Assembly (NCBI GenBank): GCA_017560085.1
Contig: JAFYPA010000027.1
Span: 1 to 64,000 of the forward strand
DNA length: 64,000 nucleotides
Reading direction: 5' to 3'
Source: Clostridia bacterium
GTDB taxonomy: Bacteria; Bacillota; Clostridia; Oscillospirales; CAG-382
A model generated the notes under the pieces. That model was not told the origin of the DNA, ran no database searches, and saw only the letters and a program-made list of their open reading frames with translations. Made by a program: the position numbers and the translations under genes. This document shows positions 24,473-35,062 of this stretch, in pieces (position 1 is the first letter of the stretch; the number at the start of each line of letters is the position of its first letter).

Positions 24473-26056
24473 TTGAAAAAATACGACTATATCGACTATT
24501 TGTCAGGCTCCCTGCCCTGCATCCTGATTTGTGCTCTGTGCGGATGCGTTACGGGGGCTGTGATTTTTCTTTTCAGATACGCCTCTAGATATATTGAGGA
24601 TGTTTCGCAGTATCTTTATTCCGTGTCAAAATCTTCGGCTCTGCGGGTTATCGCCGTGTTTGCAGTTGCCGTTCTGCTTGCGCTCACAATGGCTTATCTC
24701 CATAAGAAACTCCCCGAGGTCAAGGGTGGCGGTATTCCACGAAGCGAGGGCATTATGCGAGGACTTCTCCCCTTCCGTGCACTGAGCACGCTTATCGGTA
24801 CGGTTATCGGAAGCTTCATCAGCTTTTTCTGCGGTGTCCCCGTGGGAAGTGAAGGTCCTGCGGTGCTTATAGGCACCTGTCTCGGAGGGATATGCACAAA
24901 AAAGACAAAAAACAGACTCGCCATTGACAGATATGTTATGTCCGGCGGTGCGGGTGCGGGCTTTGCCGTGGCTACGGGTGCTCCCCTTTCTGCGATGCTC
25001 TTTACTCTCGAGGAGATTCACAGAAGATTTACGCCTATGCTTGTTATGGCTGTTTCCGCATCAATTGTCTGCTCGACGGTTGTCAACAGAGCACTTTGCA
25101 CTCTTGCGGGAATAAGTCCGAGTCTTTTCGGCTTTTCCATAAAGTCCGACTTCGAGCTTTCCCACGTGGGATATCTTATACTCGGCGGAATAATCATTGC
25201 CGTTGCGGTTGGAATTTTCGACAAGTCCCTTGCCCTTTTCAAGAGATTCTCGAGATTCGCAAGCGGAGTTGTTTCTCCCACAGCAAAGCTTATAATCATT
25301 TTCGTAATCGTTGCCGCAATGGGGCTCTTCTTCAACGAGGGCATTTACAGCGGTCATCACATAATAGAGGAAATCATCCACGAGGACAAGACTCTTCTGT
25401 TTCTACTCGCAATCTTTGCACTCCGACTTGCCATGATGCTTCTTGTAACGGACTGCGGAGCGACGGGCGGTATCTTTATTCCGACCCTTGCAATAGGCGT
25501 TCTTGCGGGCGCTGTTGCAACTGAGCTTATGATTTATCTCGGCTTCCCGAGTGAATATGCCTCCGCAACGATACTTCTCGGAATGTGTGCCTTCCTCGGC
25601 GGTACTCTGCGAGCTCCCTTCACCGCCTGCGTGCTGTTTGCCGAGCTTACGGGAAGCTTTACCGACTTTTTCTACGTTTCCATTGCCGTATTTACGGTAA
25701 ACATCATAACGGAAATCCTCGCTCAGGAGTCCTTCTACGACACGGTGCTTGAGCACACGGTGAGAAAGCAGAACAGAAATCTCTGCTTCGAGACGGAATA
25801 CTACACAATGACGGTCAGCCGTAAAAGCTTTGTCTGCGGTAAAACCGTCCGCGATGTAATGTGGCCATACTTCTGCGTTGTTCTTTCCGTGGAGCACAAG
25901 ACCGACTACAGAGATGCCTGCTTTAACGACGGCGAAAAGCGGCTTCACGAGGGCGACATCATAAAGGTGAGAGTCCGCTACACAGACAAAAAAGCGGTGC
26001 TTGACAGACTTTCCGCTCTTGTGGGAAACAGCGATTTTATTCGTGAAGAGCAATAA
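24473..26056 (+). CDS. CLC-family chloride channel or Cl-/H+ antiporter with C-terminal RCK_C-like domain
   Basis: A 527-residue membrane protein. The three CLC selectivity segments are present: GGGIP (85-89), GSEGP (125-129, Glu127 being the gating glutamate) and GGIFIP. LFTLEEIHRRF around residues 177-186 provides a glutamate at the position used for proton transfer in CLC antiporters, favouring Cl-/H+ exchange over a channel. The last 80 residues resemble the TrkA-C/RCK_C ligand-binding domain (GKTVRDVMWPYFCVVLSV). The TTG start at 24473 is chosen because the longer frame runs into the promoter and AGAAGG lies upstream. Function: probably acid resistance or anion homeostasis. Confidence 0.9.
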   Translation: MKKYDYIDYLSGSLPCILICALCGCVTGAVIFLFRYASRYIEDVSQYLYSVSKSSALRVIAVFAVAVLLALTMAYLHKKLPEVKGGGIPRSEGIMRGLLPFRALSTLIGTVIGSFISFFCGVPVGSEGPAVLIGTCLGGICTKKTKNRLAIDRYVMSGGAGAGFAVATGAPLSAMLFTLEEIHRRFTPMLVMAVSASIVCSTVVNRALCTLAGISPSLFGFSIKSDFELSHVGYLILGGIIIAVAVGIFDKSLALFKRFSRFASGVVSPTAKLIIIFVIVAAMGLFFNEGIYSGHHIIEEIIHEDKTLLFLLAIFALRLAMMLLVTDCGATGGIFIPTLAIGVLAGAVATELMIYLGFPSEYASATILLGMCAFLGGTLRAPFTACVLFAELTGSFTDFFYVSIAVFTVNIITEILAQESFYDTVLEHTVRKQNRNLCFETEYYTMTVSRKSFVCGKTVRDVMWPYFCVVLSVEHKTDYRDACFNDGEKRLHEGDIIKVRVRYTDKKAVLDRLSALVGNSDFIREEQ

Positions 26057-26061
26057 AAAAC

Positions 26062-26100
26062 AAAGCCTTGACTTTTGGGAAACCGAAGTCAAGGCTTTAA
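26062..26100. terminator. Intrinsic terminator between convergent genes
   Basis: Stem AAAGCCTTGACTT (26062-26074) / AAGTCAAGGCTTT (26086-26098). It serves the CLC gene and the end of the manA operon. Confidence 0.85.
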
Positions 26101-26126
26101 TTATGCAATTTTTACTTACACGGAAA

Positions 26127-27143
26127 TCAATAGCATTCCGCTATTTCCACATTTCCCGTAACGGCAAACTTACCCATAAGGCAAAGAGGCATAAAGAAGT
26201 AATCGCCCTTCCTGATATCCTTTTCATAGCCGTCACCGACAATCTTACCGTTTCCTTCGGTAACGATATAAACGCCGTAGCTGTCCTTTACGCAAAGGGT
26301 GTGCTTTCCGCCGTTTACGGTGATTCTGTTTATAACGAAGCAATCGGTATGCTTTTCATAAATGAGCTTCTCAAGCTTTACGCCGTCCTTTTCGGAAACC
26401 ACCTCGGGAATAAGCTTTGTATCGGGTGCCTTTTCGAAATTGAAGCAGGAAACCGCCTGGTCCTTTGTAAGACCGATGTACATTTCCTTATCCGAAAGCT
26501 TATATTCACCGCACCAGCGCTCGGGCTGGATTGTGAAGTCGGTAGGCTCCTGCACCTCAAGGATGAGACAGCCCGCTCCTATTGCGTGCACCGTCTTTGC
26601 GGGAACGAAGTACACATCGCCCACCTTCGGCTCAACATATTCCATAAGGCGCTCCATTGCGTCCTGATCCGTTTCGCTGTCCTCGATTGCCTTTCTGAAG
26701 GATTCCTCGGTAACGCCGTCCTTAAAGCCGAAGTAGATTCGTGCGCCCGGTCTTGTTGCGAGGATGAGCCAGCTTTCCGTTTTGCCGTAGTCGGAGTTGA
26801 AGTATTCTCTCGAAAACGCCTTGTCGGGATGAGCCTGCGCAGGGAGTCTTATTGCGCTGTCGAGGTATTTTACAAGTATTCTGAAAACACCGTCCTTACC
26901 GAGGCATTCATCGTGGTACTTCTCCAGAAGCTCGTCAAAGAACATATCGCTTCCGAGAATCTGCGAAACGCCTTCTCTGGGGCTTCTCATAACCTTATTG
27001 TTGGCAACAACCGCAGAGGCAACCCATTCCTCCGGAAGGTATCCGTCCACCGGCTCGTCACCGAGGAAGTCACCGAAGAGCTTACCGCCCGTATATACTC
27101 TGCCTACTCTGTTTCTTTCAAAAAATATCGGCTGATTTATCAT
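26127..27143 (-). CDS. manA: Class I mannose-6-phosphate isomerase
   Basis: A 338-residue cupin-type zinc enzyme interconverting mannose-6-phosphate and fructose-6-phosphate. Zinc ligands and family motifs are visible: LPAQAHPDKAFS, PKVGDVYFVPAKTVHAIGAGCLILEVQEPTD, then the C-terminal cupin (KGDYFFMPLCLMG). The length suits the short bacterial type. It is the last gene of the minus-strand operon that begins with the glycyl radical activase, 27 bp behind the FGGY kinase, so it probably processes a product of that pathway. Ribosome site AAAGGG. Confidence 0.9.
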   Translation of the reverse strand: MINQPIFFERNRVGRVYTGGKLFGDFLGDEPVDGYLPEEWVASAVVANNKVMRSPREGVSQILGSDMFFDELLEKYHDECLGKDGVFRILVKYLDSAIRLPAQAHPDKAFSREYFNSDYGKTESWLILATRPGARIYFGFKDGVTEESFRKAIEDSETDQDAMERLMEYVEPKVGDVYFVPAKTVHAIGAGCLILEVQEPTDFTIQPERWCGEYKLSDKEMYIGLTKDQAVSCFNFEKAPDTKLIPEVVSEKDGVKLEKLIYEKHTDCFVINRITVNGGKHTLCVKDSYGVYIVTEGNGKIVGDGYEKDIRKGDYFFMPLCLMGKFAVTGNVEIAECY

Positions 27144-27170
27144 AATTTTACCCTTTCGTGTTTTACAGTT

Positions 27171-28409
27171 TTATAATCTCGCCTTTGCCTCAAGAGCAAA
27201 CATAGCCGCACCGACAGCCGCCTCCTCAAGATGCTCGGGAATTGTCATCCTCATACCGAATTTTTCCTCGGCGATTTTTACAAGTGCGGGATTCTTGCGT
27301 ATACCGTTACCCGAGCCGACAAGACCGCTGAAGCTTATTCCCGCGGGAGCGAACATATTGTAAAGCTCGTCCACCATACCGCAGAGCACCGCTTTTGTAA
27401 GTGCGGACGGGTTGAAGTTTTCCGTTGTGATGCCCGAAAGGCTTCCCGTGATACTGCTGTCCGCTCTTGTGCCTGCGAATCTTGTATCGGCAACAATGGG
27501 CGTTGTGGTTTCCTTCTCAAGCATTTTATCCATTATGCCATAGACCGTCTTTTCGTCGAATTCTCCGACATATCCGAGGATTTCACCATAGAAGCTTTTG
27601 AGCATGGAGTAAGCCCTTCCGCCACAGAGAGCCGCACCTACAAGCAGATATTTATCCCCAACGAAGGGACGTGTCTCGATATTTTCGCCCTTGATGATTC
27701 TGTCTGTGATAGCGGAAATCTGGCTTCCCGTACCGAAGTTGAGAAGCAGGTCGCCCTCACCCGCACAGGAGTAAACGCTCGCCTGATTATCGCCTATCGC
27801 AACACTGACGGGGATTCCCTTATATTCGCCCGCAATCTTAAAATCCCTTGTGACACAAAGCTCAAGTCCGTTTGTAAACTCGCACTTCTCAATGTCAAAG
27901 CATCCGAAGCTTGCGGCGTCGCTTGCGTGGACAATGGGCTTGTTCAGTCCGCAGAGCTTCATAACGAAATAGTCGTGAATAGTACAGAAGCCGACAGCAT
28001 TTTCGGGGCGGATTCCGTTTTCTCTGTTATAAAGGTCGGTAACACATCCGAATCCCGTAGACCCGCCGAGGTATTTCGCATAGGTAGTTCCCTTATAAGG
28101 AAAATTCCCTCTGCCGTCCTGCCAGGTATAAAGCGGACTCACCGCATTTCCGTCAGCATCCACATAAACAATTCCATGCATCTGCCCCGTAACTCCGATA
28201 ACCGCAGTATCACCGTCAACAAACTCCTCGGCAATACCCGTGGCAATATCAATTATCTTATCAACCGACTGTATCTTCTCCCACTCGGGAGTCCCATCTA
28301 TAAATGCCTCGCTGTTTTTTGTAACGGATTTCAAAACCTTCCCGCTCTCCGCATCAACAACCACCCCGCAAACGCTGGTTGTACCAAGATCTATCCCTAT
28401 AGCCTTCAT
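27171..28409 (-). CDS. FGGY-family carbohydrate kinase (sedoheptulokinase-like)
   Basis: A 412-residue ATP-dependent sugar kinase of the actin-like fold. MKAIGIDLGTTSVCG forms the first phosphate loop, GVTGQMHGIVYVD is the substrate strand typical of xylulokinase and sedoheptulokinase, and LNFGTGSQISA plus the C-terminal GLVGSGNGIRKNP form the ATP site. The QMHG pattern and short length resemble sedoheptulokinase-type members, but the sugar is not proven. The ATG at 28409 follows AGAAGGGAAAG; the frame extends 16 codons further upstream without ribosome site support. It lies between the glycyl radical enzyme and manA. Confidence 0.87.
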   Translation of the reverse strand: MKAIGIDLGTTSVCGVVVDAESGKVLKSVTKNSEAFIDGTPEWEKIQSVDKIIDIATGIAEEFVDGDTAVIGVTGQMHGIVYVDADGNAVSPLYTWQDGRGNFPYKGTTYAKYLGGSTGFGCVTDLYNRENGIRPENAVGFCTIHDYFVMKLCGLNKPIVHASDAASFGCFDIEKCEFTNGLELCVTRDFKIAGEYKGIPVSVAIGDNQASVYSCAGEGDLLLNFGTGSQISAITDRIIKGENIETRPFVGDKYLLVGAALCGGRAYSMLKSFYGEILGYVGEFDEKTVYGIMDKMLEKETTTPIVADTRFAGTRADSSITGSLSGITTENFNPSALTKAVLCGMVDELYNMFAPAGISFSGLVGSGNGIRKNPALVKIAEEKFGMRMTIPEHLEEAAVGAAMFALEAKARL

Positions 28410-28440
28410 ATCATCTTTCCCTTCTCTCAAATCAATTGAA

Positions 28441-28493
28441 GGAAGCGAAGCTTCCAACCTCGATTATGCATTATGCATTATGAATTATGAATT
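28441..28493 (+). repeat. Hairpin plus heptamer array ATGCATT/ATGAATT
   Basis: Hairpin GGAAGC-gaa-GCTTCC (28441-28455), AACCTCGATT, then ATGCATT twice and ATGAATT twice in exact 7-nt phase (28466-28493). It lies inside the operon, between the glycyl radical enzyme and the kinase. Confidence 0.85.
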
Positions 28494-28511
28494 CTATTTC
28501 CCTCTCCCAAG

Positions 28512-30845
28512 TCAGCACATACAAGTAGACTTCAAATCCAATCTCGTTATAATGTCCTGCTGAATTTCCGGTGAAAGGTCAAGGAAGTTAACAAACGTTC
28601 CGTGGATTCTCATAATATATACACCGCTCGGAGCGTACTTCTTCGGGTTTTCAAGCACCTTGCGAAGAGTTTCGGGAGTTGTTACGTTTACATAGAGGTA
28701 GAAGGGAGATACACCCTCGCAAAGAGGATTGAAGAACAGCGGATTTATAACATTGTCCTTGAACTGTACGCCCTTTTCCGAAAGGTCATCGCTTGTGAAA
28801 TATTTCGGGTCGATACCGAGGTGAGATGCATAGCCTCCGCAGAACTTTTCGAAGGGAAGCTTCATATTGGAAAGCATTCTGAAGCCGAGACCGTTGGATG
28901 CCTCGCCGTAAAGCGGGTCAACGCCGTAGCCGAGCATATCGCGGCTCTTTCTGCCGTCGGGAGTTGCGCCTACCCAGTAGCCGTAGGTAAGGTGTGTCGA
29001 GGGCGTTGAGAAGTCGGGACGGAAGGGATTTCCGAGATAGTTCTTCTTTTCTCTTATCATATCGGAAACTCTGTTTGCAATAATCCTTGCCTCATTGTCA
29101 ACCTCCTCGATGTTGTTGCCGAACTTCGGGCAGGAAAGGAGGAATTCTCTTATATCGTCGTATCTTTCAAAGTTATTCTTGAGTGCCTTGATAAGTGTTT
29201 CTTCACTGTCGGGATACTTCTCAAGGTATTTGTCAATGGCAATAAAGGAATCGGCAAGCACGGAAAGACCGTGGATAAGGCATCCGCTTCCGTTGTATTT
29301 TGTGCCCTGCTTTTCCGTGTCACGCATATCCGCTCCGTATTCCATACCGCCCATAAAGCAGCTGAGGAAGGGTACCTTAAGCTCGGAAAGTGCTGTGGAG
29401 CAGCCGTTCGCCGCCTCTACCATCTTGTCAAGCACCTTGTCCAGCTTTTCATAGAAGGCTTCTCTTATATTGGCAAGGGTGTACTCTGTTTTTTCCGTGA
29501 GAACATCGCCCGTAATTGCGGACTTGCCGTCCATAAGTATTGTCTCAAGCACCTTGGGAAGTGAAAGCCAGCTGTTTGTGGTGTTGCCGTTGTCCTTACC
29601 CATAATAAGAGGCTCCTGACAGCCAGCAACCGAATAGTCGGGGATATCCGCCTCGTCTATGCCGTGATTTTTAAGCACCTCAAAGAGAGCATCGTCGTTG
29701 AAGAGAGAGGGTGTAAGAACACCGGGCGAGAAGAAGAATCTGCCCATTTCCTCATAAAGCTTTGCGGGTGTGTTTTTGTGGAGCTTCACGGAAAGAATCG
29801 GCTGAGGAAGATTCATATCATAGTAGGCATCCAGAATTGCGTAGGACATTGTGCTTGTAAGGTCGTTGCCCTCCGTGTCCTTACCGCCCACAAGTACATT
29901 CTGTGAAATAGCCCAGCTTCTGTCGCCAACATTGTAAAATACAAGGAAATGCTTGAAGAGCTCCGCCGCCTCTTCCCTTGTAAGGTCGCCTCTGTAGGGC
30001 TCGAATATTCTGTCTGCGTTACCTACGGAGAATGCATAGGGGTTGGGAGCCTGCTCTATGCACATTACCTCCCAGAGAAGAAGGTAAAGCTGAATTGCCT
30101 CGTAAAGGGTTTCCGCACCCTTGGAGGAAATTTTTGTAAGGGTCTTTTCAAGAAGCTCAAGCTGTGCAAGTCTTTCCTCGCTTGCGGTCTTTTTCTTTTC
30201 GCAGATAAGCTCGATATATCTTCTGCAGAGGATTCTTACGCCGTCAAGAGCGATAATAAAGGCGTTGTTGTAGGGGTCCTTCCATCCGCCGTCGGCACGA
30301 AGCTTATCCGTAAGTGCGTCAAGACCGTACTTGAGTGCAGGTCTGAAATCGGGGATAACGTGTCCCGTTACCTGCTCAACGAAGAAGAGAACTTCTTTTG
30401 TATAATTCTCCGCCTCGCCGTAGGTCTTGTTGAGCATACCCACCATAGGAGATTTCGCCGTATACTGACGCACTCTGTCTATTCTTTCGGCGGTGAATTC
30501 CTCATTGGGCTCGATGTCGTTGTATATCGCCATAGGGTCGCAGTAGCCCGAGAAGCCCTCAACCGTGAAGGACGGATTTATAAGAGCATAGCTCTTGGCG
30601 AAGGCATCTCTCTGTGTGCCTACGAAAATCGCATTGTCGGAAAGGGACAGCGGAAGCGCACGGAGCACCTCGTTTGTAAGATACGCCTTTCTGATTTCGG
30701 GGTGAAGGTCCTTGTACTTGTCAGCACAAAGCATCTCCGTTTCCTTGGCTATAAACCAGCCGTCAAGTCTTTTTATTTCTCTTTCTTCTCTGTAAAGTGC
30801 CTTTGCCATTTCGGTAATCTGACCGTTTTTGTAAATGCCGAGCAT
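28512..30845 (-). CDS. Glycyl radical enzyme (PFL/dehydratase superfamily), substrate unknown
   Basis: A 777-residue glycyl radical enzyme. The active-site thiyl cysteine is in DYSVAGCQEP (Cys409) with Glu411 in the GCxE pattern of the dehydratase/lyase branches rather than the CC of pyruvate formate-lyase. The glycyl loop near the C-terminus reads MRIHGTFVNFLDLS: Gly749 and Arg746 are present, but the aromatic residue that normally follows the glycine is Thr. It lies directly downstream of its radical SAM activase and upstream of a sugar kinase and manA, which suggests a sugar-derived or polyol substrate. There are no microcompartment genes. I cannot assign it to glycerol, propanediol, choline, hydroxyproline or isethionate enzymes. 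Confidence 0.87.
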   Translation of the reverse strand: MLGIYKNGQITEMAKALYREEREIKRLDGWFIAKETEMLCADKYKDLHPEIRKAYLTNEVLRALPLSLSDNAIFVGTQRDAFAKSYALINPSFTVEGFSGYCDPMAIYNDIEPNEEFTAERIDRVRQYTAKSPMVGMLNKTYGEAENYTKEVLFFVEQVTGHVIPDFRPALKYGLDALTDKLRADGGWKDPYNNAFIIALDGVRILCRRYIELICEKKKTASEERLAQLELLEKTLTKISSKGAETLYEAIQLYLLLWEVMCIEQAPNPYAFSVGNADRIFEPYRGDLTREEAAELFKHFLVFYNVGDRSWAISQNVLVGGKDTEGNDLTSTMSYAILDAYYDMNLPQPILSVKLHKNTPAKLYEEMGRFFFSPGVLTPSLFNDDALFEVLKNHGIDEADIPDYSVAGCQEPLIMGKDNGNTTNSWLSLPKVLETILMDGKSAITGDVLTEKTEYTLANIREAFYEKLDKVLDKMVEAANGCSTALSELKVPFLSCFMGGMEYGADMRDTEKQGTKYNGSGCLIHGLSVLADSFIAIDKYLEKYPDSEETLIKALKNNFERYDDIREFLLSCPKFGNNIEEVDNEARIIANRVSDMIREKKNYLGNPFRPDFSTPSTHLTYGYWVGATPDGRKSRDMLGYGVDPLYGEASNGLGFRMLSNMKLPFEKFCGGYASHLGIDPKYFTSDDLSEKGVQFKDNVINPLFFNPLCEGVSPFYLYVNVTTPETLRKVLENPKKYAPSGVYIMRIHGTFVNFLDLSPEIQQDIITRLDLKSTCMC

Positions 30846-30865
30846 AATCTTGCCTCCCGATAAAT

Positions 30866-31567
30866 TTATGTTGTTATGATTTTAAGTCCGTAATTTTCAA
30901 ATACTTCAACGAATTTTTTGACCGTTTCCTTCGGCACAAAGCCGTTTTGCACCTTGTATTCGGTTTTCCACTTTTCTTTGCCGTATTCGTGGTAGGTGAG
31001 AAATTCGAACACGGTGTTTTCCGTATCGTGCTGTGCAAAATACTGTGCAAAGCCCTCGGGGTTATCCGTGTTTATGCCGTTAACCAGCGGAATCCTTATG
31101 TGCTGTTGCCGACCCGAACGGCAGTTTTTTTCGTAATTTTCCCGTATTACCTTGTTGCCGACACCTGTATATTTCCGCAGAGCATCGCTGTCGTAGTGCT
31201 TGAAGTCCATAATGAGATAGTCCACATATGGCAGAATTTCGGACAGCCGTTTTGAGGTGCCGTTTGTCTCGATTGCCGTGTGGATTCCGTCCTCCGAAAG
31301 AGCCCTGAGAAGCTCGCAAAGCTCGTCAATCTGCATTGTAGCCTCACCGCCCGTGAAGGTGACTCCTCCACCTGAGAAAAACATTGCCTTGCTTCGTCTG
31401 CACTCGTCCAGAAGAACGGAAATCGGGATATCCTTGCCTGCGCACATATCCATTCCCTCGGGATTCGAGCACCAAATACAGCGCATATTGCACCCTTGCA
31501 GATGGTACACAAGTCTGTTTCCCGGTCCGTCCTGACGGAAGTTGAAGCCTTTGTTGAATATTTTCAT
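30866..31567 (-). CDS. Glycyl radical enzyme activating protein (radical SAM)
   Basis: A 233-residue activase. GCNMRCIWCSNPEG carries the CX3CX2C cluster ligands (Cys26, Cys30, Cys33), and SGGGVTFTGGEATMQ is the SAM-binding GGE region. It uses a 4Fe-4S cluster and S-adenosylmethionine to abstract hydrogen from the glycine of its partner. No extra ferredoxin-like insert is present, as in the compact PflA-type. It is first in the operon, 20 bp before the glycyl radical enzyme, with a consensus promoter at 31611-31639. Confidence 0.93.
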   Translation of the reverse strand: MKIFNKGFNFRQDGPGNRLVYHLQGCNMRCIWCSNPEGMDMCAGKDIPISVLLDECRRSKAMFFSGGGVTFTGGEATMQIDELCELLRALSEDGIHTAIETNGTSKRLSEILPYVDYLIMDFKHYDSDALRKYTGVGNKVIRENYEKNCRSGRQQHIRIPLVNGINTDNPEGFAQYFAQHDTENTVFEFLTYHEYGKEKWKTEYKVQNGFVPKETVKKFVEVFENYGLKIITT

Positions 31568-31589
31568 CTGTTCTGATACCTCTAATTAG

Positions 31590-31639
31590 TTAAATGCTTT
31601 AACTATGTGTATTATACCACATAATCACCGTTTTGTCAA
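31590..31639 (-). promoter_or_regulatory. Promoter and possible operator of the glycyl radical operon
   Basis: TTGACA (31634-31639) and TATAAT (31611-31616) on the minus strand, 17-bp spacer. Directly downstream is the inverted repeat GTTAAA-tgc-TTTAAC, and closer to the start a CTAATTAG palindrome (31582-31589). Either could be an operator. Confidence 0.8.
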
Positions 31640-31679
31640 TGATTTTTACGATATTTCAAAAATTTCGGCAATTCGACAA

Positions 31680-31720
31680 AAGGAAATCCCGATGCAACGC
31701 CGTAAAGCAATTGCATCGGG
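31680..31720 (-). terminator. Intrinsic terminator of the feo operon
   Basis: Stem CCCGATGCAA (31688-31697) / TTGCATCGGG (31711-31720); on the minus strand it is followed by ATTTCCTTTTG. Confidence 0.8.
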
Positions 31721-31729
31721 AGCTTATGG

Positions 31730-31901
31730 TTATTTGTTGTCCTTTTTTTCGTCGGAGCAATTCTTCTGCTGTCCGCAGCCGCTGCATCCGCCGCAGCCAC
31801 AGCCGCATCCTCCGCCGTTCTTTCTCTTCTTTATTTCGGAATAAACCACCGCCGCAAAAAGCACGGCGATAACCGTAACACCGATTATTGTAGGTAACAT
31901 A
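31730..31901 (-). pseudogene. FeoB-associated cysteine-rich membrane protein, frameshifted
   Basis: Too short for routine ORF finding. An ATG at 31901 with GGAGG upstream opens MLPTIIGVTVIAVLF, a single membrane helix. In the next frame the sequence continues AAVVYSEIKKRKN and a cysteine-rich tail (GGGCGCGCGGCSGCG) to a TAA at 31730. The two frames meet in a run of six A on the plus strand (31856-31861; T6 in the gene); five would give one intact 56-residue protein. This layout, a helix plus a Cys-rich tail directly behind feoB, is that of FeoB-associated Cys-rich membrane proteins thought to aid Fe2+ uptake. The extra base may be a homopolymer sequencing error, a real mutation or a slippage site. 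Confidence 0.75.
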
Positions 31902-31920
31902 TCATATACCTCCGAATTCT

Positions 31921-34107
31921 TTATTTTTTCTTTGCATCATAGGGGCGCACAGCCATATACACAAGGAACGCAAGCACCGCAAGTGCAAGCACCGTCCATA
32001 TGCCGAAGGGATGTCCCGCAAAGATTCCGCCTATGTTGTAGATGATAAGGGACATAGCATAAGCAAATCCGCACATATATCCGATTGCCGCAAATGTCCA
32101 TTTTGCGCTGTTCATCTCACGCTTGATTGCGCCCATAGCCGCAAAGCAGGGTGCGCAGAGAAGGTTGAATATCATAAAGGAGAAACCCGCAAGAGCACTG
32201 CCGTTCATAAATTCGGTAATTGCACCCTCTGCCCCCACGGGAGTGGGAAGCATTTCACCGAGTGAGCCGAATACGCCGACAACCTCTTCCTTTGCAACAA
32301 GTCCGAGAATGGTTGCAACAGCGGACTGCCAGTTTCCGAAGCCCAGCGGAACAAAGAGCCACGCAATAACTGAGCCTATATTTTCAAGAATGGAAACTCC
32401 GCCGTTTTCCTCCGTGATATAGTGGAAGCCACCTGTGAAGGAAAGGCTGTTGAGTGTCCAGATAACAACGGATGCCGCAAAGATTACCGTGCCTGCACGC
32501 TTAATGAAGTCCCAGCCTCTTTCCCACGTGGTTCTTGCAACATTACTTGCAACGGGAAGGTGGTATGAGGGAAGCTCCATAACAAAGGGTGCGGACTCGC
32601 CTCTGAAGGGCTTTGTCTTTTTGAGGATAATACCCGAAACTATTACCGATGCGATACCGATAAAGTAAGCACTTACCGCAACGAATGCGCTTCCGCCGAA
32701 GAGTGCGCCCGCAATAAGTCCGATAATGGGCATCTTCGCACCGCAGGGAACAAAGCAGGTTGTCATAATGGTCATTCTTCTGTCTCTTTCCGACTCAATG
32801 GTACGGGAAGCCATAACACCGGGCACGCCGCATCCGGATGCAACAAGAAGCGGAATGAAGGACTTACCCGAAAGACCGAATTTTCTGAAGACTCTGTCCA
32901 TAATAAATGCAATTCTCGACATATAACCGCAATCCTCAAGAAGTGAAAGCATAAGGAAGAGAATAATCATCTGCGGAACAAATCCGAGCACCGCGCCGAC
33001 ACCGCCTACAATGCCCTCCATAATAAGGCTGTAGAGCCACTGCGCAACAACGGGAGTACCGTCGGAAGCGAGAAGCACCTTGTCAAGAAGCTCGGGAATG
33101 CTTATCCAGCCCGACATAAATGCGGGAAGGTCGCCTGCCGCCGCTGTTTCCTTGAAGGAGCCGAAAAGACCGTCGTTCATAAACGTTACGGTGAAGTTAC
33201 CCACAGAGCCGATTGCGATTGTATATACAAGCCACATAAGGCAGATAAACAGCGGAATTGCGAGAATTCTGTTGGTTACGATTCTGTCTATCTTATCCGA
33301 AACAGAGGCGTGACCTGCGCTTTTCTTTGTGTAGCACTTGGAGAGCACTCTGCCTATGTATTCGTAGCGCTCGTTGGCGATAATGCTTTCAGCGTCGTCG
33401 TCAAGCTCTGCCTCGGCGTTTCTGATATCCTTTTCAATATGGGAGACAACCACGGGGGAAATCCTCAGCTGCTCCATTACCATCTTGTCTCTTTCGAAAA
33501 TCTTTACGGCGTACCATCTCTGTCTGTCGTCGGGCATATCGTGGATTGCCGCTTCCTCGATGTGAGCAATTGCGTGCTCAACGGCACCGGAAAAGCTGTG
33601 TATCGGCACAACCTTGTGAGACTTTGCCGCCTCTATAGCAACACTTGCCGCCTCCTCTATGCCCTCATTTCTGAGAGCGGAGATTTCAACGATTCTGCAT
33701 CCGATTGCCTTCGAAAGAGCCTCGATGTCAATCTTGTCGCCGTTCTTTCTGACGATATCCATCATATTTATTGCTATAACAACGGGAATGCCGAGCTCTG
33801 TAAGCTGGGTTGTGAGATAGAGGTTTCTCTCTATATTCGTGCCGTCCACGATATTGAGAATCGCATCGGGTCTTTCGCCCACAAGGTAGTTTCTTGCCAC
33901 TACCTCCTCGGGAGTATAGGGAGAAAGCGAGTATATACCGGGAAGGTCGGTTACGATGACGTCCTTGTCTGTCTTAAGCTGTCCTTCCTTCTTCTCTACC
34001 GTAACGCCCGGCCAGTTGCCTACGTACTGGTTTGAGCCTGTAAGCGCATTGAAAAGCGTTGTCTTACCCGAATTCGGGTTTCCTGCAAGTGCTATTTTGA
34101 TTGGCAT
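31921..34107 (-). CDS. feoB: Ferrous iron transporter FeoB
   Basis: A 728-residue Fe2+ transporter with an N-terminal GTPase domain: G1 GNPNSGKTT (9-17), G2 region VGNWPGVTVEKKEG, G3 DLPGIYSL and G4 NMMD. A helical spacer and two Gate regions in the membrane part follow (GVPGVMASRTIES, PCGAKMPIIG, LLCAPCFAAMGA). The length is standard. It follows feoA and precedes the Cys-rich protein. An operator-like palindrome lies in the feoA-feoB gap at 34145-34164. It moves ferrous iron into the cell under anoxic conditions. Confidence 0.97.
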   Translation of the reverse strand: MPIKIALAGNPNSGKTTLFNALTGSNQYVGNWPGVTVEKKEGQLKTDKDVIVTDLPGIYSLSPYTPEEVVARNYLVGERPDAILNIVDGTNIERNLYLTTQLTELGIPVVIAINMMDIVRKNGDKIDIEALSKAIGCRIVEISALRNEGIEEAASVAIEAAKSHKVVPIHSFSGAVEHAIAHIEEAAIHDMPDDRQRWYAVKIFERDKMVMEQLRISPVVVSHIEKDIRNAEAELDDDAESIIANERYEYIGRVLSKCYTKKSAGHASVSDKIDRIVTNRILAIPLFICLMWLVYTIAIGSVGNFTVTFMNDGLFGSFKETAAAGDLPAFMSGWISIPELLDKVLLASDGTPVVAQWLYSLIMEGIVGGVGAVLGFVPQMIILFLMLSLLEDCGYMSRIAFIMDRVFRKFGLSGKSFIPLLVASGCGVPGVMASRTIESERDRRMTIMTTCFVPCGAKMPIIGLIAGALFGGSAFVAVSAYFIGIASVIVSGIILKKTKPFRGESAPFVMELPSYHLPVASNVARTTWERGWDFIKRAGTVIFAASVVIWTLNSLSFTGGFHYITEENGGVSILENIGSVIAWLFVPLGFGNWQSAVATILGLVAKEEVVGVFGSLGEMLPTPVGAEGAITEFMNGSALAGFSFMIFNLLCAPCFAAMGAIKREMNSAKWTFAAIGYMCGFAYAMSLIIYNIGGIFAGHPFGIWTVLALAVLAFLVYMAVRPYDAKKK

Positions 34108-34144
34108 TTGTGTTTTTATCCTTTCGGAAATATTATTTTGTTTC

Positions 34145-34164
34145 GAGTTAGTCTCGCCTAACTC
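34145..34164 (-). promoter_or_regulatory. Operator-like palindrome between feoA and feoB
   Basis: GAGTTAG-tctcgc-CTAACTC. It has the same half sites as the operator before feoA (34452-34471), so feoB may have its own point of iron control. Confidence 0.6.
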
Positions 34165-34193
34165 ATCTGCGTAAAATTAAAGGTCGGAGAATA

Positions 34194-34412
34194 TCATTCA
34201 ACCACGACCATGCTCGCATCCGCCTTGCGAAGAGAAAGCTCATAGCCTCGGAGATTCAGCTCCATGGGGTCACCCAGCGGTGCAACCTTGCGGACGTAGA
34301 TTTCTATGCCCTTGGTTATACCCATATCCATAATACGGCGCTTTACCGCACCCTCGCCCGTAAGCTTCACTACTCTTACGGTTGCTCCTACCTTTACCTT
34401 GTCAAGTGTCAT
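34194..34412 (-). CDS. feoA: Ferrous iron transport accessory protein FeoA
   Basis: A 72-residue SH3-like protein. The FeoA fold is recognisable from RRIMDMGITKGIEIYVRKVAPLGDP and the final strand MELNLRGYELSLRKADASMVVVE. It interacts with FeoB and is needed for efficient Fe2+ uptake. It is the first gene of the feo operon; its ribosome site is AAAGGAG. The promoter and two operator-like palindromes lie upstream. Confidence 0.95.
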   Translation of the reverse strand: MTLDKVKVGATVRVVKLTGEGAVKRRIMDMGITKGIEIYVRKVAPLGDPMELNLRGYELSLRKADASMVVVE

Positions 34413-34451
34413 TGACGGTCTCCTTTTATTGTTTTTGCCCGATTTGCGTAT

Positions 34452-34515
34452 GAGTTAGTCTTGACTAACTCGTTTTTACTGCAGTTAGTTTATCATAACT
34501 CCCCCGATTTGTCAA
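34452..34515 (-). promoter_or_regulatory. feo promoter with two overlapping metal-regulator operators
   Basis: TTGACA (34510-34515) and TAAACT (34487-34492) on the minus strand, 17-bp spacer. The imperfect palindrome AGTTAGTTTATCATAACT (34483-34500) covers the -10 box. A second palindrome with perfect 9-bp arms, GAGTTAGTC-tt-GACTAACTC (34452-34471), lies just downstream of the start site. Both are placed for repression, most likely by the DtxR/MntR-type protein encoded at 34688. Confidence 0.75.
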
Positions 34516-34622
34516 TAGCTTTGAATAAAAAAATTTCATTTTGTGGAAAATTTGGGAAAGTGTGGGAGAAGTGACCGCTTATTTGTATATTTTTAGGCAA
34601 AATTCCGCCGAAAATTCCGCAT

Positions 34623-34651
34623 TTGACAAATGCGAAAACATATGATATAAT
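34623..34651 (+). promoter_or_regulatory. Sigma-A promoter of the metalloregulator gene
   Basis: TTGACA (34623-34628) and TATAAT (34646-34651), 17-bp spacer, full consensus. No GTTAG-type operator overlaps it, so expression is probably constitutive. Confidence 0.85.
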
Positions 34652-34687
34652 ACAAATACAGCATCAAAAACGAAAGGCAGAAGCGCA

Positions 34688-35062
34688 ATGATTATAAAGG
34701 AATCCGCCGAGAATTATCTTGAAACGATATATATGCTCAACAAACAGCGCGGCTTTGCAAGAAGCATTGACATCTCCAACGAGCTCGGCGTTTCAAAGCC
34801 CAGCGTATCGGTGGCGATGAAGAACTTCCGCGAGGCGGGCTATATAGAAACAGACCCCGACGGCAAGATTACCCTCACAAAAAAGGGTCTTGAGGTTGCC
34901 GAAAGAGTATACGAAAGACATCAGGTTGTGGCAAAGGCACTTATCGCCCTCGGTGTTGACGAGGAAACCGCCTTTGAGGACAGCTGTAAAATCGAGCACG
35001 ACATAAGCCAGAAAACCTTCGAGAAAATCAAGGACTTCCTTCTGAGAAACGGAAAGCTCTGA
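34688..35062 (+). CDS. DtxR/MntR-family metal-dependent transcriptional regulator
   Basis: A 124-residue regulator: a winged helix (RSIDISNELGVSKPSVSVAMKNF, about 23-45) and the metal-binding dimerisation domain (KGLEVAERVYERHQVVAKALIALG, SCKIEHDIS). The E-R-H...C-x-x-E-H-x-x-S arrangement supplies the metal ligands; there is no C-terminal SH3 domain, as in MntR and short IdeR-like proteins. It is divergent from feoA-feoB, which carry matching palindromic operators. It most likely represses iron uptake when Fe2+ is plentiful. Terminator at 35092. Confidence 0.92.
   Translation: MIIKESAENYLETIYMLNKQRGFARSIDISNELGVSKPSVSVAMKNFREAGYIETDPDGKITLTKKGLEVAERVYERHQVVAKALIALGVDEETAFEDSCKIEHDISQKTFEKIKDFLLRNGKL

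Follow-up and report, generated by a model that had tools for sequence, protein, structure and literature searches.

What does a glycyl radical enzyme (GRE), an oxygen-sensitive catalyst, do when its glycyl loop departs from the published pattern and its gene lies among sugar genes? The question is raised by a locus of a gut-dwelling Clostridia bacterium (CAG-382; assembly GCA_017560085.1, contig JAFYPA010000027.1), which we analysed as a 64,000-nt stretch of DNA, hereafter the window. A first-pass annotation of this DNA had described a GRE with an RIHGTF loop and a GCQEP motif, accompanied by an activase, an FGGY sugar kinase and a mannose-6-phosphate isomerase (MPI), and had proposed it as a candidate for a new reaction on a sugar or polyol. 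The coordinates of the gene, its length and both motifs were as that annotation gave them, and all of the partners were found on the minus strand, in the order activase, GRE, FGGY kinase and MPI-like gene:

31611..31639, minus strand: promoter-like site (TTGACA-N17-TATAAT, extended TG), ending about 44 bases ahead of the activase, with 12/12 consensus matches
30866..31567, minus strand: GRE activase, a radical SAM protein of 233 aa (PF04055, 8e-17; cluster motif CNMRCIWC)
28512..30845, minus strand: GRE of 777 aa (PF02901, E 1.2e-96), with an ATG start after a GGGAGG ribosome-binding site
27171..28409, minus strand: FGGY carbohydrate kinase (PF00370, 4e-14; motifs QMHG and GDNQAS)
26127..27143, minus strand: MPI-like two-cupin isomerase, related to class I mannose-6-phosphate isomerase (PDB 1qwr, 64 bits)

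A plausible ribosome-binding site was seen by eye before every gene of the operon, and the promoter-like site is the only perfect match among the 8 sites found in 25900-32100, a number of sites no higher than in shuffled sequences (8 vs 7.1). The activase is of the short form, which lacks the ferredoxin-like insert, and its TIGR02494 score (162 bits) is under the cut-off of 174. For the kinase, the start is an ATG that is conserved in its relatives, the ORF list beginning at an upstream TTG (28457); its best NCBIfam match is to the xylulokinase model TIGR01312, at 81 bits and below the cut-off of 380.25, and it presumably resembles animal sedoheptulokinase. The MPI-like protein falls short of the TIGR00218 cut-off (76.9 vs 116.2 bits). 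Next to the operon, the stretch 31921-35062 holds a FeoB iron transporter gene (Pfam) and, divergent from it, the gene of a 124-aa regulator that resembles DtxR/MntR (34688-35062, by eye).

The GRE possesses the PFL-like barrel domain, recognised both by PF02901 and by its fold. Structural alignment gave 1r8w as the top match (Z 37.6, rmsd 3.4, 664 residues), with Z scores of 37.6/37.5 for glycerol and propanediol dehydratases, 36.0 for HypD and 35.6 for CutC. The AlphaFold2 model of the protein has a mean pLDDT of 75.6, the C-terminal third lying largely below 50 (614-660, 670-678 and 708-777 nearly throughout), as do 85-91, 95-101 and 308-313; the residue correspondences given here are taken from profile alignments. 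These place the mid-chain catalytic Cys as follows:

29610..29624, minus strand: Cys loop G408-C409-Q410-E411-P412, which holds the CXE motif and in which C409 is aligned with the Cys of GCVEP of glycerol dehydratase

The GCQEP sequence is kept in 42/42 aligned family members, a count in which loci L010 and L011 are copies of a single gene. The CXE motif (C409-Q410-E411) places the window GRE with the known GRE eliminases and, considering the unusual loop and the activase and sugar-handling genes that adjoin it, the enzyme probably removes a hydroxyl from a sugar or sugar alcohol. The reading that we favour, with our confidence evenly balanced, is that it would be a CXE eliminase of an unphosphorylated sugar or sugar alcohol, belonging to an uncharacterised family. 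Homology, conservation and gene partnership carry this reading, and from them we infer radical formation, substrate, product and the order of steps.

Sequence comparison assigns the window GRE to a separate GRE family. It is roughly 20-28% identical to the other GREs compared, and it reaches the cut-off of no NCBIfam GRE equivalog or subfamily model, 12 of these models matching, all by a wide margin under their cut-offs, and the best being TIGR01774 (240.7 vs 678.2 bits). By sequence, glycerol dehydratase, propanediol dehydratase and Archaeoglobus pyruvate formate-lyase 2 come closest among the proteins of solved structure, and the solved relatives are at most 24% identical in structural alignments. 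The 15 family members included in a quick tree of 45 rows group as a single clade (SH-aLRT 100), whose branch measures 1.92 changes per site, and the rows outside it are 20.6-26.3% identical to the window protein over long alignments; we claim no sister group, since the tree has SH-aLRT support only and long branches elsewhere. The best plasmid match among the 15 listed of 140 is 28.1% identical over 82% of the query. The first-pass annotation, which could not match the protein to a characterised subclass, is borne out by these values, and the PDB sequences and NCBIfam models held no characterised GRE of high identity with the same loop, which was the result that it had named as refuting its proposal. 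Among the papers listed by searches of the open PMC literature, which mostly leaves out subscription papers, none dealt with the family.

At E<=1e-90, family members occur in 9/394 genomes sampled from the order, 14/391 from the class and 1/398 from the phylum (the window's own, which is counted in each sample), the best one or two candidates per genome having been scored; the matches either span the whole protein (1294-1538 bits) or are fragments lying at contig ends. Within the taxonomic family, 2/63 genomes match at E<=1e-60, both from the genus of the window. With members in so few of the genomes sampled from order, class and phylum, the spread of the family is patchy. The majority of the 40 loci first collected come from uncultured Clostridia, many of ruminant-gut origin, and the named members are Muricomes intestini and Claveliimonas bilis, both Lachnospiraceae, and Clostridium sp. 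C105KSO13, which is filed under Clostridiaceae.

Among known GREs, YbiW and PflD (8id7, 8id0, 8yjo) act on sugar-type substrates; according to PDB titles and PMC12441222, they cleave C-O bonds of sugar-type phosphates. As this cleavage is already in print, the window GRE may carry out known chemistry on a new substrate. It is unlikely, in our judgement, to be a 1,5-anhydrohexitol-6-phosphate lyase distantly related to them, which would open a phosphorylated anhydro sugar ring to 1-deoxyfructose-6-phosphate. Such a lyase would agree with His618 of the window GRE, which two PflD proteins share (SAHVPLG in 8yjo, SAHIPLG in 8id0), with a fructose-6-phosphate aldolase gene (TIGR00875, 297 bits, cut-off 246) that separates GRE from kinase in one family operon (L043), another such gene standing beside a GRE of V. 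europaeus, and with the plasmid matches, the top ones among those listed being PflD-type proteins of E. coli, Salmonella and Vibrio (25-28% identity). However, identity is 21-22% to the solved YbiW and PflD proteins and 25% to a PflD-type protein; the family is monophyletic (support 100) and lies outside the fork that holds the PflD-type protein in the quick tree; the fold Z scores to PflD and YbiW (27-29) are below those of the other eliminases; the Asp of the PflD LHD is replaced by Thr423; and the PflD loop is RVAGY. The operon in the window has a kinase and no PTS, and two PflD-type genes adjoin a fructose PTS.

The neighbourhoods of the relatives bear on the favoured reading, an eliminase of a free sugar or sugar alcohol. 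The 80 loci of the family fall into 58 groups at 99% identity (possibly 57 genes, since L114 and L098 belong to the same genome and probably represent two fragments of a single gene), and their annotation draws on profiles of genes that recur, on four family scans and on inspection by eye, an approach that may miss rare partners. The radical SAM activase lies directly upstream, on the same strand, in 54/54 groups with at least 700 bases upstream. Of the 54 groups that have 1500 or more bases of downstream sequence, 51 carry an FGGY kinase within 9 kb and on the same strand (46 of the type seen in the window and 5 of a xylulokinase type), and the remaining three carry none there (L018, L039, L042). 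An MPI-like gene is near the GRE in 32/58 groups, on the same strand in 30, and is absent from 26/58, some for lack of sequence; a divergent AraC-type regulator occurs in 20/58. The sugar or polyol context first noticed in the window is therefore common to most of the 58 groups. Together with the CXE motif and the eliminase fold matches, the activase, the kinase and the MPI-like gene count for the eliminase reading, and the groups that lack a kinase or an MPI-like gene count against a sugar eliminase.

The same counts can be set against the idea that the sugar genes are passengers and that the substrate of the GRE is unrelated to sugars. Their order and content do vary among loci, and the other GREs of the host genome occur in many contexts, as this idea would have it, but the kinase stays on the same strand in 51/54 groups, down to 54-59% GRE identity and with two kinase types in the role, and we consider passengers an unlikely explanation too.

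Some of the rarer partners are informative about the substrate. In L113, a D-lyxose isomerase gene (PF07385, 3e-101) stands directly after the FGGY kinase, in place of the MPI-like gene, along with an aldose epimerase and a PfkB kinase. The xylulokinase-type kinase occurs in five loci (L037, L038, L040, L041 and L048), whose hosts are the named Lachnospiraceae, a Lachnospiraceae MAG, a Dorea MAG and the Clostridium; the L037 kinase, which is the one checked against the curated model, exceeds the xylulokinase cut-off (468.5 vs 380.25 bits). The locus of the Dorea MAG (L048) has its GRE split into two ORFs and its kinase some 3.5 kb downstream. An Rbs-type ABC transporter is encoded in L040, L041 and L048 (3/58 groups) and a zinc dehydrogenase of polyol type in L040 and L048 (2/58 groups), in each case on the same strand and within 9 kb. 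The L048 dehydrogenase groups with ketose reductase and with sorbitol, L-arabinitol and xylitol dehydrogenases, and the binding protein of the L040 transporter has the solved relatives 4rs3, 5hko and 4rsm, which we take to be polyol complexes but give no weight as evidence on the ligand. The earlier statement that the operon has no dehydrogenase or transporter thus stands for the window and does not extend to every relative.

Glycosidases are also present, GH38 on the same strand in 6/58 groups and on the opposite strand in one more, and GH32 in 4/58; in L033 the kinase is followed by an arabinofuranosidase, a protein similar to which was recognised by eye in L046, and in L106 a DUF2961 protein and a GDSL esterase stand between GRE and kinase. 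A sugar substrate is favoured by GH38 and GH32, by the lyxose isomerase of L113, the aldolase of L043, the xylulokinase of L037 and the dehydrogenase of L048. Against it counts that the nearby glycosidases vary (GH38, GH32, GH51, DUF2961, GH127), are limited to a minority of the groups and indicate no single sugar. The candidate substrates are mannose-like sugars (GH38, the MPI-like protein, lyxose isomerase), fructose-like sugars (GH32) and polyols (the dehydrogenase, in two loci), among which the evidence does not choose.

Residue 206 of the MPI-like partner is a Gln, as in 24/24 aligned relatives, and is an Arg in B. subtilis ManA (1qwr) and in two other MPI-like proteins of the host genome; a further MPI-like match, on contig C81 of that genome, lies outside this comparison. 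Taken with the replacement of the partner by a D-lyxose isomerase in L113, Gln206 suggests that the partner would isomerise a free aldose rather than mannose-6-phosphate. That the substrate of the GRE would itself be unphosphorylated has as its sole basis the kinase and the lyxose isomerase of one locus.

One segment of the barrel is specific to the family:

29271..29288, minus strand: SGCLIH (S520-H525), replacing SGPQGV / SGVQGI at the aligned barrel position

S520, G521, C522, L523 and H525 are invariant in the family (30/30), and the five solved GREs aligned have P, I or V at the position of Cys522 and V, F or I at that of His525. This Cys-His pair would suit a radical isomerase or epimerase, in which the thiyl would take a hydrogen, Cys522 would return one, and the GRE would stand in for a sugar isomerase that is missing before the FGGY kinase; the xylulokinase-type loci, 5/5 of which have no MPI-like gene within 9 kb, would suit it as well. 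Such an activity is nevertheless improbable, for the CXE motif of the eliminases is intact, a separate MPI-like gene is kept in 32/58 groups, and we know of no GRE that acts as a radical isomerase or epimerase.

It is also improbable that the protein is a small-diol dehydratase, acting on glycerol or propanediol as its closest solved relatives do. Glycerol dehydratase (Clostridium butyricum, 1r8w/1r9d) gives the best profile score for the window GRE (266 bits) and, with propanediol dehydratase, the best fold matches; it shares with the window GRE the fold and a GCxEP with the CXE motif, and its His164 corresponds to His162 in the window, while the 1,2-propanediol dehydratases (5i2a, 9rco) share fold and CXE motif. 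However, identity is 24% to the former and 22-24% to the latter, the RVAGY loop of glycerol dehydratase differs from RIHGT, and the operon in the window has no microcompartment or diol gene, unlike that of the Rahnella propanediol dehydratase, which is a microcompartment operon. His281, Ser282 and Asp447 of glycerol dehydratase, which we take to be substrate-binding residues, correspond in the profile alignment to Tyr270, Ala271 and Thr423 of the window GRE, so the binding mode and the hydrogen taken cannot be read from the relatives; the three changes count against a sugar eliminase too.

The loop by which the protein first drew attention lies near the C-terminus:

28593..28610, minus strand: glycyl loop R746-I-H-G749-T750-F751, in which G749 falls opposite the loop Gly of glycerol dehydratase

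The radical is expected to reside on Gly749. The published GRE fingerprint is RVXG[FWY] (PMC11528403), and RIHGT departs from it by an Ile for Val and a Thr for the aromatic residue, with the Gly itself retained. The first-pass annotation had pointed to the Thr, and the oddity proved stronger than it had put it, given the Ile and the behaviour of the Gly_radical model PF01228, which has no match at E<=5 in the window GRE or in its Muricomes relative L038 (HMMER filters drop most weak matches) and is above its cut-off in 8/8 other GREs scanned. A three-residue insertion precedes the loop in the profile alignment, the C-terminal region having been aligned by whole-GRE profiles and GrcA models.

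RIHGTF is present in 77/80 related loci, and in the other three the frame is broken or cut (in L048, the second ORF of the split gene has RIHGT; L095 and L098 run off the contig end). RIHGTFVNFL is found in 41/42 aligned members, the remaining one being gapped there. Between the window GRE and L011 the dN/dS is 0.07 (dS 1.5), and dS is saturated in the comparison with L012. The 77/80 loci, the low dN/dS and the activase upstream in 54/54 groups indicate that the loop is not a sequencing error, and they also make a degenerate or radical-free relative very improbable, despite a fingerprint broken at two positions and unmatched by PF01228. Since the barrel domain, the mid-chain catalytic Cys and the partner activase of the GRE superfamily are all in place, we file the protein as a variant GRE rather than a canonical one. 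Altered fingerprints are also found in the aminoacyl radical enzymes, GRE relatives mostly from gut metagenomes in which, according to PMC11528403, the Gly is replaced by Ala, Ser or Thr; the window GRE does not belong with them, as it keeps the radical glycine (G749) and has its Thr one place later.

The host genome (3.10 Mb) holds 26 GRE genes (28 PF02901 match rows in 26 ORFs), the window being its contig C12. The residue after the loop Gly is Y, F or W in 24 of these, T in the window GRE and V in one other (L063:12052-14241, contig C45); the latter, whose loop (RLWGVS) is likewise non-aromatic at this place, is matched by Pfam Gly_radical, unlike the window protein. By pattern, the Cys-loop motifs are very different (GCVEP, GCYET, GCNEM, GCHWM, GCWGV and others). 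There are 8 activase genes at a threshold of at least 100 bits vs 26 GREs, and an activase-like ORF lies near the GRE in 4/22 stretches (the window, L052, L053 and L060), some stretches ending at contig ends. In L062 (contig C50, 3-4772), a GRE with an RVTGF loop and GCHWM is followed by cupin-like, Arg-keeping MPI-like and sugar epimerase-like proteins (the first and last by eye), and a relative of this GRE lies upstream of the family operon in L014. The genomes G513, G486, G048, G679, G492, G491 and G182, from other Clostridia, have 16 to 37 unconfirmed first-look GRE candidates each, the same first look giving 40 candidates for the 26 GREs of the host genome, so its richness in GREs may not be unique.

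For an eliminase of a free sugar or sugar alcohol, the reaction might proceed as follows. The dedicated activase would put the radical on Gly749, from which it would move to Cys409. To judge from the CXE motif, the Cys409 thiyl would then take hydrogen from a C-OH carbon of the unphosphorylated substrate, and Glu411 would take the hydroxyl proton as the C-O bond next to it is broken. A deoxy-ketose is the probable product, which the FGGY kinase would phosphorylate for entry into central metabolism. The MPI-like or lyxose-isomerase partner, beside which some relatives have mannosidase or fructosidase genes, would link mannose- or lyxose-shaped aldoses to the ketose pool, a part that a polyol dehydrogenase may take in two other relatives. 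Against this reading counts that a 1-deoxy-ketose would be of no obvious use to an isomerase.

The novelty of such a reaction has to be judged separately from that of the protein. Of the proposal that the GRE is a candidate for a new reaction on a sugar or polyol, the context and the separateness of the family have held; the reaction itself may be of a known kind, as the CXE motif and the YbiW/PflD precedent fit known chemistry. What is new here is the separate family, the changed glycyl loop and the kinase-linked context, and what was already known is the cleavage by GREs of C-O bonds of sugar-type phosphates. We propose only tentatively, leaning somewhat against it, a new GRE reaction class in gut Clostridia, in which a free sugar or alditol would lose a hydroxyl by a radical route, or be rearranged, by an enzyme that has a remodelled loop (HGT for xG-aromatic) and, in its barrel, a second invariant pair, of Cys and His.

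The family indicates that the fingerprint by which GREs are recognised and the Pfam Gly_radical model can both miss a conserved group of these enzymes, which catalyse some of the most demanding chemistry of the anaerobic gut. The presence of relatives in named Lachnospiraceae (Muricomes intestini, Claveliimonas bilis) makes the question testable. If the reading is true, a free sugar or alditol substrate would represent an added route for dehydrating carbohydrates.
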